From the IMG/VR virus record IMGVR_UViG_3300021964_000070, positions 1-59,538 of that record: 59,538 bases of DNA; one strand, 5' to 3'. The notes beneath the pieces were generated by a model. That model had not been told where the DNA came from, searched no databases, and saw only the letters and a program-made list of their open reading frames with translations. This document shows positions 10,120-19,271 of this stretch, piece by piece. Source of the DNA: a virus. Position 1 is the stretch's first letter; each line of letters starts with the position of its first letter. Both the position numbers and the translations under genes were made by a program.

Positions 10120-11564
10120 TAGTAATATGCCCTTACTTTCACGTATGTTTCTTCATCGTCCCAGTCGTCAGACGGGAGCTGAACAAAGTTTCCTTGACGG
10201 TATCTCATTAAGGCTTGTGTCATGCTGTCCACCAAGTCATCGTATTCGCCGTTAGGAAATGCCGCCACCTCCTCTATCATCTCGTCTGCAAAGGTGGTGT
10301 CGGGGGCCCAAACCATCCCCGCCTCGAAAAGCGGAGATACAGAATGAACACGAGTTATCTTATCATTACCTTTGCTCGGCGTAAAGTTAACAACTGGTAT
10401 TCCCATGTTTCTTAATTCATGTGTGAGCGGTAACCCAGAGGCTTTCGCTTCCACAATCACGGTATCCGGTTCCCAATACTTATACTGGTCCAACGCAACC
10501 TGCTTCAACTCAGGAAAATCCCAGCGGTCTTTCTTACTATCCAAAAGAATTAAACCGGGCGGCCCACCTATCTCCTGTGGCCGGAAAACACCCCACGTGG
10601 TTATGGCTGAGAAGTCGGCTGTCTCGCGTTTAGAAAAAGCGGTATCATAGCTCTGTATAACATATTCGAGATTGGGTATTGCATCTTTCTCCCACCTTTT
10701 CCACCACTGACGAGGGATAATAGCGTTCTCTTCCCCCGTTGGGTTCTGTTGATACTGCGCGTTCCACTTACTGGGTGGAATAGACGCTTTCACTGCTGTT
10801 AAGTCCTCAATAGACCAAAACTCAGGCCAGCAGGGGGACCCGTCATTAAAAATAGCCGGTAGCTCCACAACCTCCCACTGGTCTGCCAAGGGGTCTTTAG
10901 CCATCGCCTTTAATAGCTGCCCCGTCATATCCTTTTCGGACCACCGGGTCTGAACCAAAACAATTGACCCACCCGGCTGGAGACGTTGCCGGGGGCCCCC
11001 AGTGTACCAATCCCACGCATCATCAAAACCACTATTAGACATGGCAGTCTGTTCAGAGTGCGGGTCATCAATAATCACCAAGTCACCACCACGACCGGCC
11101 AGATTGGAGCCAACCCCGACAGCATAATACATCCCGCCAGATGCGGTATCCCAGCGACCAGACGCCTTACTGTCCGCCGCCAGTTTAACACTTGGGAAAA
11201 CTTCCTTGAACTCTTCGCTGTCAATCAGGTTTTTTGTTTTACGGCCAAAGTTAACTGCAAGCTCGGTTGTGTGCGTAGCTTGAATAATCTTCATGCGCGG
11301 GTTCTTGCCCATCATCCAAGCAGGGAACAAGAAAGACGCAAACTCTGATTTCGTATGACGCGGGGCCATGTTGATAATCAGGCGCTTTAGTTCGCCGCTA
11401 GCTACCCGCTCTAACTTTTCAGCAATGATTTTATGATGACGACCAGCAATGAACTCAGGCCACATAGATTTTACAAATGTTAAAAAGTCCGTTTGACAAG
11501 CTTCATTCTTCTCTAATTGAGCTAGCCGCAAACGAAGCTTGGCTTCCTGTTCAGAAACATCCAT
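10119..11564 (-). CDS. terL: Terminase large subunit
   Basis: 481 aa. ATPase with Walker A-like INMAPRHTKSEFASF (HTKSE in place of GKT), Walker B GGDLVIIDDPHSE, and a C-motif; then the nuclease domain beginning YVIQSYDTAFSKRETADFSAI with the first catalytic Asp and later VDSMTQALMRYR. This pattern fits the terminase large subunits of the TIGR01630 type. It pumps DNA into the prohead and cuts concatemers. The small subunit is encoded 5 kb away, not beside it. Packaging strategy (headful or cos) cannot be read from this. Confidence 0.92.
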   Translation of the reverse strand: MDVSEQEAKLRLRLAQLEKNEACQTDFLTFVKSMWPEFIAGRHHKIIAEKLERVASGELKRLIINMAPRHTKSEFASFLFPAWMMGKNPRMKIIQATHTTELAVNFGRKTKNLIDSEEFKEVFPSVKLAADSKASGRWDTASGGMYYAVGVGSNLAGRGGDLVIIDDPHSEQTAMSNSGFDDAWDWYTGGPRQRLQPGGSIVLVQTRWSEKDMTGQLLKAMAKDPLADQWEVVELPAIFNDGSPCWPEFWSIEDLTAVKASIPPSKWNAQYQQNPTGEENAIIPRQWWKRWEKDAIPNLEYVIQSYDTAFSKRETADFSAITTWGVFRPQEIGGPPGLILLDSKKDRWDFPELKQVALDQYKYWEPDTVIVEAKASGLPLTHELRNMGIPVVNFTPSKGNDKITRVHSVSPLFEAGMVWAPDTTFADEMIEEVAAFPNGEYDDLVDSMTQALMRYRQGNFVQLPSDDWDDEETYVKVRAYY

Positions 11565-11573
11565 AGGGGGCCC

Positions 11574-11789
11574 CTAAGTTAAAATAACGTCCGCCTCTGT
11601 CTCAATCCAGACCTTTGCGCCACAGGACAGAGGTTTATCCGGACTGTAAACCACCGTGCAATCCCCTTTTATCTGGACCCGGTGAGCGTAAGTATTGCTC
11701 CGACCTTCCTTGACGGTGATGACCGGCTCACGTTCTCCGGTCTTGTGGTTGGACCTAATTTTATGTTGATTAATATGTATGCGTTTCAT
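11574..11789 (-). CDS. Small hypothetical protein upstream of terL (71 aa)
   Basis: Basic N-terminus (KRIHINQHKIRSNHKTGERE), a beta-strand-rich body (HRVQIKGDCTVVYSP) and an acidic end (WIETEADVILT). No domain known to me. It is the first gene of the terL operon, downstream of the noncoding control region, 9 bases before terL. Confidence 0.6.
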   Translation of the reverse strand: MKRIHINQHKIRSNHKTGEREPVITVKEGRSNTYAHRVQIKGDCTVVYSPDKPLSCGAKVWIETEADVILT

Positions 11790-11795
11790 GCCCTA

Positions 11796-11824
11796 AATAT
11801 GCACATTTTTTAATCAGTTAACAA
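11796..11824 (-). promoter_or_regulatory. Candidate promoter for the terL-portal block
   Basis: TTGTTA at 11824-11819, 17-base spacer, CATATT at 11801-11796, ending a few bases before the start codon at 11789. Both hexamers are imperfect (4 of 6 each). The same CATATT at N17 occurs in the promoter at 12864. It is the only promoter-like signal I see for the leftward late block. Confidence 0.35.
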
Positions 11825-11837
11825 CCCCCTCTATTTT

Positions 11838-11852
11838 GCCTAATAAATAGGC
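11838..11852. repeat. Inverted repeat beside parS
   Basis: GCCTA ATAAA TAGGC, a 5-bp perfect dyad with 5-base loop, ending two bases before the parS palindrome. Too short and without a T-run, so more likely a binding site or chance than a terminator. Confidence 0.4.
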
Positions 11853-11854
11853 AG

Positions 11855-11870
11855 TGTTTCACGTGAAACA
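11855..11870. promoter_or_regulatory. Perfect consensus parS (ParB binding) site
   Basis: The 16-base palindrome TGTTTCACGTGAAACA matches the bacterial chromosomal parS consensus at every base. A random match is about 1 in 4^16. ParB, a CTP-dependent clamp, loads at this site and slides over neighbouring DNA in most bacteria. No ParA or ParB is visible in the window, so the site would serve the host protein or a phage protein I failed to recognise. It lies in an intergenic control region between terL and the first early operons. Confidence 0.9.
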
Positions 11871-11879
11871 TCCATATCA

Positions 11880-11905
11880 TTTTTCACATGATTATTTGTG
11901 AAAAA
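11880..11905. repeat. 9-bp inverted repeat TTTTTCACA/TGTGAAAAA
   Basis: Perfect arms at 11880-11888 and 11897-11905 with 8-base spacer (TGATTATT), nine bases past parS. The arms share TTCAC/GTGAA with parS. Could be a weaker ParB or repressor site, or a hairpin. Not flanked by a T-run in the right place for a typical terminator in either direction, although the arms themselves end in T or A runs. Confidence 0.55.
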
Positions 11906-11909
11906 CATG

Positions 11910-12280
11910 GCCCTTGCCTGCGTATGCCAGCGCGTGGGCGGCGGTGCGCGGATTGCGGTTTTTGACGGTTTTTTCGCGGTTTTTTGACCCGATAGGGCGG
12001 GGCCCCTTGCCCGATTTTGCCAGCGGGGGCGGGGGATTGCGGCCAGCGGGGCGCGGTTGCCGGTGCTGGGTTGCGGCGGCGGTTGCCGGTGCTGGGCGGT
12101 AGGGCGGCGGCCAGCGGTGCGCGGTGCGCGGATCTCGGTCTGCCGGTCGCGGCTAACTTTCCAGAAAATTAGATTCACGGCCTGCGAATCTCCGGCCGGT
12201 AGGTTTGGGGCGCGGCCTGCGGGGCTAGGGGCGGCATGATTAACTGATTAAAACGCGACAGGCGGCCAGCTGGCGGGCAT
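11910..12280. other. G-rich noncoding tract
   Basis: About 370 bases with no convincing gene. The plus strand is very G-rich (GCGGGGGCGGGGGATTGCGG type runs) and contains an 18-bp direct repeat GCGGTTGCCGGTGCTGGG at 12053-12070 and 12079-12096 (26-bp period), plus repeated GCGGCCAGCGG. Runs of GGG at short spacing could fold as G-quadruplexes. Base composition is unlike neighbouring genes. Possible pac/ori or imported DNA; the minus-strand reading frame at 11840-12178 is rejected as a gene. Confidence 0.5.
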
Positions 12281-12281
12281 T

Positions 12282-12314
12282 AAAAAACCCCCGCGGGTAA
12301 ACTACCGGCGGGGG
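12282..12314 (-). terminator. Terminator after the 156-aa gene
   Basis: Stem CCCCCGC/GCGGGGG (12288-12294, 12308-12314) extended inside by GGTA/TACC around an AAC loop, then TTTTTT on the minus strand (12287-12282). 22 bases after the stop codon at 12336. It also insulates the early operons from the control region. Confidence 0.9.
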
Positions 12315-12335
12315 CTGGGTTGCGTTGTGTGGGCT

Positions 12336-18034: not shown

Positions 18035-18261
18035 AACTCTGCATCCTCTTTTAGCTTGCGTTCAATGGCGGGATGGGACACCCAGCTTTTGAGCCCCAGT
18101 TCGACACTTTTGCGGTAATCGTTTTCCTGTTGCCGCCAGTAGGTGCTGTCTTCATCATTCCATTCTGCCTCTTCTGCATAATATCTGCAAATCACCATGC
18201 AGGCGTGGCCGGTTAATGACCCGTCCGGCCAGCGGACAACTTTAGGGGGTTGCATCTTCAT
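17980..18261 (-). CDS. Hypothetical protein (93 aa)
   Basis: Starts MKMQPPKVVRWPDGSLTGHAC; the first five residues and ribosome-site context repeat those of the next gene upstream (MKMQP at 19271), suggesting a small duplication of the gene start. Trp-rich helical body (DSTYWRQQENDY, ELWKKSWVKWEQRQ). Starts on the last base of the endonuclease gene. Confidence 0.6.
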   Translation of the reverse strand: MKMQPPKVVRWPDGSLTGHACMVICRYYAEEAEWNDEDSTYWRQQENDYRKSVELGLKSWVSHPAIERKLKEDAELWKKSWVKWEQRQSLSVW

Positions 18262-19271
18262 TAGTTACTCCTCAGTGCGTGGTTATTGCCGTTCACGCAT
18301 TTAATGGTGAGAGCCTCTTCGGCAGACCACTTTAATTTTTTAATACGGCGGTGGGCGGTTTTGTAATCTACTGCGCCAAAATAATTGCAAGCATCTTTTA
18401 GTGTGGGGAAGACCATGCCCCTAACTTTTATGTTAGTCATTTTACGGACAGTGTATTTGGTTAGGCCGTATTCTTTTTTTAGAAGATAGACGGTGTATTT
18501 ACCCATCCCGTATTTTTCTGTTATTTGATTATCTGTTGCTCCCGCCTTGATGTCTTCTACGGCGTTTTTGCGAACGGTGTCATCGTATCGAATAATCATT
18601 TTTGCGCGGGGTTTAGTCGCGCCTGCCCGTTGTAAAATACGGTTTATAGTACCGCGCCCGACACCATATTTTTCGGCCAGCTTTTCGGTGGTAATCCGAT
18701 GGCTAGTATAATCGTCAATAACTGCCTGCGTTTGTGCATTAGAAAGTTTAACGCCGTATCCGCCCATAGGTGCGCCAACAAGGCTGTTTAATTGAACAGC
18801 ATCGGGGAAGGCGGCCTGCACTTTGGCAATGAGACGTGGTTCGTGGTGCGCGATTTCTGTTGCCTTGTATTTTTTACGGAAGATTTTAATTTTACAGCAT
18901 TTTTCATCTTTTAGTAGGGCACGATAGATAAAGCGATCTTTTTTATTGACGCCTTTTTTACCGTCGCGCTTTGCTTTTTGGATGTGTTGCTTGAACCGCA
19001 ATTCGGGGTCTGCGCTTGAACCGATATAGATGCCTTTCCCATCGACAATTAAGGCATAAAGTTGGCAAGGCCTGTCGGCATGACCTGACAGTTCAGCGGG
19101 GGCAAGGGGCATAAGCCCCAGTTTTTTGCCCCAGTTACGGATGATGGCGTAATCGTTATTGGAAAGGCCTTTGTTTCGGCAGGCCTGTAACACGGAGATT
19201 TTTTCCTGCGCCGCGTGTTCATACATATCGCGGATTTGTTTGTCGGAAAACTTACGCGGTTGCATCTTCAT
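18261..19271 (-). CDS. GIY-YIG endonuclease with HTH repeats (homing-type)
   Basis: 336 aa. Residues 1-55: a helical HTH-like part. Residues about 70-155: GIY-YIG domain, LYALIVDGKGIYIGSSADPELRFKQHI with the paired Y and YIG, the catalytic Arg after it, and HHEPRLI carrying the metal-binding Glu. C-terminal half: two or three helix-turn-helix units (TTEKLAEKYGVGRGTINRIL; ATDNQITEKYGMGKYTVYLL) and a NUMOD-like end (KDACNYFGAVDYKTAHRRI). Family members are free-standing homing endonucleases such as Seg enzymes. No intron flanks it. Confidence 0.85.
   Translation of the reverse strand: MKMQPRKFSDKQIRDMYEHAAQEKISVLQACRNKGLSNNDYAIIRNWGKKLGLMPLAPAELSGHADRPCQLYALIVDGKGIYIGSSADPELRFKQHIQKAKRDGKKGVNKKDRFIYRALLKDEKCCKIKIFRKKYKATEIAHHEPRLIAKVQAAFPDAVQLNSLVGAPMGGYGVKLSNAQTQAVIDDYTSHRITTEKLAEKYGVGRGTINRILQRAGATKPRAKMIIRYDDTVRKNAVEDIKAGATDNQITEKYGMGKYTVYLLKKEYGLTKYTVRKMTNIKVRGMVFPTLKDACNYFGAVDYKTAHRRIKKLKWSAEEALTIKCVNGNNHALRSN

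Follow-up and report, generated by a model that had tools for sequence, protein, structure and literature searches.

What is a complete chromosomal parS site doing in the control region of a phage, and which protein reads it? The palindrome TGTTTCACGTGAAACA lies in a 59,538-base stretch of a virus record (the window), and it equals the complete 16-bp chromosomal parS consensus, a widely shared consensus that may not be the ParB preference of the actual host. The protein known to recognise this sequence is chromosomal ParB. The exact 16-mer is the single match in the window even when three mismatches are allowed; about 1.7e-5 exact matches per window are expected from base composition, and shuffled sequences contained a mean of 0.27 matches at ≤3 mismatches. 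The site is intergenic, flanked by a 71-aa ORF plus terL and, on the opposite side, by a GC-rich non-coding stretch. The perfect intergenic parS reported in the initial annotation was hereby confirmed.

The head of the terL operon

Read toward terL, the operon head comprises the GC-rich non-coding stretch, AGGGCCATG, an AT-rich block, parS, a short palindrome, a promoter-like element, the 71-aa ORF and terL itself (Table 1). No Rfam family of known RNA elements matched the region. An inverted repeat, TTTTTCACA/TGTGAAAAA, had been described beside parS. It is real in the window, but as a repeat it is not conserved, its arms having decayed in relatives (e.g. TTTCTGACA and GTTTCGCAC). A function as terminator was rejected, since both arms pass from T-rich to A-rich, a 3' U-tract is lacking in both directions and the repeat is not conserved. 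The arms were also rejected as DnaA boxes, because relatives do not keep them.

Table 1 Features of the terL operon head and its surroundings in the window.
Feature	Coordinates	Strand	Remarks
terL, terminase large subunit, 481 aa	10119..11564	-	phrog_38, E 4e-108
71-aa ORF	11574..11789	-	phrog_8676 (unknown function); between promoter-like element and terL
Putative promoter TTGTTA-17-CATATT	11795..11824	-	head of terL operon; from sequence reading; conserved in relatives with and without parS
Short palindrome-like CTGCCTATTTATTAGGCA	11837..11854	-	between parS and promoter; absent along with parS in parS-less relatives
parS 16-mer TGTTTCACGTGAAACA	11855..11870	.	palindrome; conserved in relatives
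Block TTTTTCACAAATAATCATGTGAAAAA	11880..11905	-	AT-rich; holds the inverted repeat (11880-11905); in conserved operon-head block
GC-rich, repeat-bearing non-coding stretch	11906..12330	.	upstream of operon head
Terminase small subunit candidate, 210 aa	16487..17119	-	phrog_51, E 7e-12

Other elements were observed in the same neighbourhood. A perfect 14-base inverted repeat, TTTTAATCAGTTAA/TTAACTGATTAAAA, occupies positions 11808-11821 and 12240-12253, 418 bases apart; one arm falls within the terL promoter-like element, the pair brackets the GC-rich non-coding stretch, and a similar pair is visible in relatives. Three short direct repeats of the AAAAACCG type are found at 11955-11987 in a conserved non-coding stretch and are possibly a packaging or replication signal. 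A 336-aa protein encoded at 18261-19271 of the window includes a GIY-YIG nuclease domain and several helix-turn-helix matches.

Conservation of parS among close relatives

Eighty relatives (TerL identity ~88-96%), unselected for parS, were collected by a TerL search of IMG/VR, and 75 of them had enough upstream sequence for parS to be scored. The exact 16-mer was found in 61/75 and a version with a one-base difference in 3/75, while 11/75 had no parS in the upstream sequence covered. In 32 non-redundant contexts, the column identity of the parS flanks averages 70% and 66%. As these contexts were chosen by an exact parS match, their parS columns are 100% by construction, and the proper measure of conservation is therefore 61/75. 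Among relatives that were not selected for it, parS is more conserved than its flanks. The initial annotation had proposed a search for the 16-mer at the same place in relatives; most keep it at the operon head, and the absence that was to count against the site was not seen.

Relative to terL, the site is mostly located at -107 to -111, with other relatives at -84, -151/-152, -306, -327 and ~-1056/-1058. The relatives with longer distances carry extra genes between the operon head and terL, which indicates that parS stays with the operon head. Most genomes of the window lineage include a single parS at this one fixed place.

The 11 relatives that lack the site demonstrate that parS is not essential. 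Eight parS-less relatives have a fully readable operon head. In seven of these the block and promoter remain, without parS or its neighbouring palindrome; L160, the eighth, resembles them but has diverged further. One relative without parS at the operon head (L186/G007) encodes an exact copy ~6.6 kb upstream, within unrelated flanks. Since the promoter is kept where parS is missing, and since parS is found elsewhere in L186/G007, parS is a separable module and the promoter is independent of it.

parS sites, mostly without ParB_N, in other phages

Scanning IMG/VR with TGTTTCACGTGAAACA identified at least 120 contigs. Two scrambled control palindromes with matching base composition, one with its CACGTG core left intact, were found in 11 and 5. 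The B. subtilis-type variant, TGTTCCACGTGAAACA, was likewise found in at least 120 viral contigs. Approximately 34 among the 120 parS contigs listed encode a TerL related to that of the window (26-92% identity). The same 16 bases are present in phages whose GC content ranges from 27 to 72% and whose TerL proteins differ, and the flanks of distant sites are mutually unrelated. Selection of the same 16 bases across such varied base composition, flanks and neighbours points to a reader that is common to many hosts.

A TerL search with L044, whose TerL is ~28% identical to that of the window, revealed a second lineage. Many of its members include 2-5 exact parS copies, most of which precede terL by no more than ~2 kb (range 0.05-4.8 kb). 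L017, L044 and L301-L379 represent a freshwater-type phage lineage with parS clusters (2-5 exact sites) upstream of terL. In 50 further parS contigs, nine terminases were detected over the PF03237 cut-off, and parS lies upstream within 6.2 kb in seven of the nine. All seven sites are on the same side of the terminase (one-sided probability 0.008, modest for so small a set); short contigs force the closeness of parS to the terminase, not its side. On a TerL tree parS clusters by lineage, requiring 16 changes versus 27 in shuffles, with some rows chosen because they hold parS. One contig of 116,662 bases (L087, IMGVR_UViG_3300037518_000322) includes 11 copies of TGTTCCACGTGAAACA and one TGTTTCACGTGAAACA in the part covered, with no PF02195 match in the contig.

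The absence of ParA and ParB from the window, as stated in the initial annotation, holds at the level of six-frame searches for PF02195 and PF13614. ParB_N (PF02195) had no match in the window and 15 relatives, nor in any of 32 additional, often long, records from the lineages under study, the second lineage included; control genomes were positive. The same domain was missing from 96/100 parS-bearing contigs, many of which are fragments. ParB absence is defined here by PF02195, and a reader protein of different fold would escape this definition. The ParA-type family AAA_31 (PF13614) was found in 0/20 records, window included, and was detected in the control genomes. As neither domain was found in these records, a phage-encoded ParABS cassette was rejected. 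Tyrosine integrase (PF00589), also detected in control genomes, had no match in the phage, which encodes its own DNA polymerase, primase and helicase genes; both observations fit the lytic lifestyle that had been thought probable. parS without a ParB_N domain is common among uncultivated phages.

Isolated phages were examined as well. A conserved parS was found in none of DSL-LC04, HTVC023P, 023Pt_psg01, MinM2, CRP-901/902, Pkon1, ct7L0027, ZS04, POR1, API480, Baldr and 1.262.O, and SV21 and IME234 had no parS within the stretch read. The Pelagibacter phage HTVC027P includes a one-mismatch site, CGTTTCACGTGAAACA, which we rejected as parS since it is coding (peptide FHVKH, in an unannotated frame) and shows synonymous codon variation among relatives. 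It shows how a chance or coding match looks, and as the window site behaves differently, HTVC027P serves as a negative control. When the operon head was compared with named phages by BLAST, all matches were at chance level. TerL relatives were located in two Verrucomicrobia MAGs and one Maricaulis MAG. Outside the phage contig, the Verrucomicrobia MAGs had no parS at 1-2 mismatches, for which incompleteness or wrong binning is possible, and with no such chromosomal site in these MAGs no host assignment is claimed.

Host ParB as the probable reader and the competing explanations

Judged from its sequence and distribution, the site is a true, selected parS and not a chance match. This conclusion follows from its exact sequence, a conservation far above that of its surroundings, its recurrence with unrelated flanks, the lack of any ParB_N or ParA gene found and the excess over scrambled palindromes. 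The phage parS very probably loads host chromosomal ParB; its occurrence at other positions with unrelated flanks, in distant relatives and in L186/G007, fits an autonomous host-read site over a phage operator. As to its main use, we lean toward ParB loading followed by tethering or partition of the phage DNA through the host ParABS system. Host ParB-CTP clamps (the clamp cycle is summarised in PMC12704722) would load at parS and spread over adjacent kilobases. The ParB-coated genome could then engage host ParA, possibly also SMC, and an infecting or slowly replicating genome would stay attached to the nucleoid or be inherited by daughter cells during delayed lysis. This use is favoured because the site is found at varied positions, because promoters outlast its loss, and because SGI1 and phi29 offer precedents. 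Against it, a fast-lysing phage has little obvious need of partition, the relatives without any site show that it is dispensable, and the isolated relatives checked include no conserved parS.

Local control of the late operon is the chief alternative, and we regard it as distinctly less probable. Here ParB from the host would spread from parS over the promoter and repress the terL operon early, until replication dilutes ParB and frees late transcription, so that the site acts as a copy-number timer and not as a centromere. P. aeruginosa ParB represses the promoters adjoining parS3 and parS4 (PMC5521831), and in the window lineage parS lies just upstream of the promoter-like element, remaining at the operon head despite inserted genes; the upstream location in other lineages (7/9 of the PF03237 matches over cut-off) agrees with such a switch. 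The promoter block, however, is retained by relatives that lost parS, the L186/G007 copy is 6.6 kb away, second-lineage sites number up to five and lie 0.05-4.8 kb upstream, and those of phi29 are scattered. Tethering or partition and local control may act together: as parS abuts the terL promoter in the window lineage, spreading ParB may in addition reduce transcription of the packaging operon at early stages, until replicated parS exceeds the host ParB supply.

For multi-site phages a decoy is possible, in which surplus parS on multiplying genomes titrates host ParB and disturbs segregation and division of the host to the phage's advantage. Second-lineage genomes with several sites each and a contig with 11 sites are in line with this, as is the dose-dependent destabilisation of a competing plasmid by parS copies of SGI1 (PMC10954446). 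Decoys are expected to multiply and scatter, whereas window-lineage genomes mostly have one fixed site, and as an overall explanation titration is improbable. Slightly less probable still is a phage element, such as the operator of a regulator or a packaging signal, that coincides with parS and to which host ParB is irrelevant. A palindrome between terS and terL, beside repeats, and likewise upstream of terL in other phages, would suit such an element; yet identical bases recur across phages of widely different GC content, TerL and flanks, the B. subtilis-type variant is likewise in excess in phages, and scrambled palindromes are rare. Chance, or a neutral remnant of recently captured host DNA, deserves practically no credence. 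An isolated 16-base site in a single genome might be such a remnant, but this reading is refuted by the minute number of exact matches expected per window, by the conservation among relatives, and by the recurrence of the site, the second-lineage clusters and the scrambled controls.

Precedents and significance

In phi29 (EU771092, L397) we found four identical TGTTTCACGTGGAACA sites, at 10445, 15903, 17243 and 18760, where 0.1 would be expected at ≤3 mismatches. One of these comes immediately after the stop codon of gene 16, which encodes the packaging ATPase. Spo0J-dependent spore entrapment of phi29 has been reported (Meijer 2005, as cited in PMC9437464). Phi29 is virulent, as the window phage probably is, and like it has a host-type parS and no annotated ParB, and the combination of host-type parS with a phage lacking ParB and integrase is found in the window phage. 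The two differ in that the sites of phi29 lie scattered, belong to the asymmetric B. subtilis type and are linked to sporulation, whereas the window lineage, of marine phages, carries a single site, at the head of the terL operon. Plasmid prophages (e.g. P1 and some mycobacteriophages) also bear parS on a phage genome; they encode their own ParA and ParB, unlike the window phage, in which neither was found. parS mimics of SGI1 bind IncC ParB and stabilise SGI1 (PMC10954446), so that here too a mobile element with parS-like sites exploits the ParB/ParA of another replicon for its own stability, although SGI1 is an integrative element with plasmid-type parS and the window is phage DNA with the chromosomal type. 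Alphaproteobacterial phages with CtrA-binding sites, associated with 'lytic deferment' (PMC9437464), likewise carry cis-sites for a host cell-cycle protein; both the protein and the site differ from those considered here.

The initial view that a free-standing parS is unusual was only partly right, given the phi29 precedent and the frequency of parS without ParB_N in uncultivated phages. A virulent phage bearing parS but no parB is already known in phi29, so the principle is not new. The literature searched, which covered few subscription papers, contained no description of an orphan chromosomal parS in a marine phage. Within that searchable literature, what appears to be new is the breadth of the phenomenon in uncultivated aquatic phages, the single, strongly conserved site at the terL operon head in the window lineage, the multi-copy form in another lineage and the recurrent place upstream of terL.

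We tentatively suggest, as a possibility short of an even chance, that parasitism of host parS function is general and has evolved repeatedly in aquatic phages without lysogeny genes: parS upstream of terL would load host ParB, so that genomes are tethered and timed by the host segregation machinery and delayed or carried infection is allowed. parS without parB provides a computational marker for finding such phages. If host ParB is indeed recruited, large groups of uncultivated aquatic phages would engage the chromosome segregation machinery through one cis-site, and the phi29 case would be widened from one spore-former system to many unrelated phages. Delayed or carrier-state infection would thereby gain a concrete, testable basis in phages that have no lysogeny genes.
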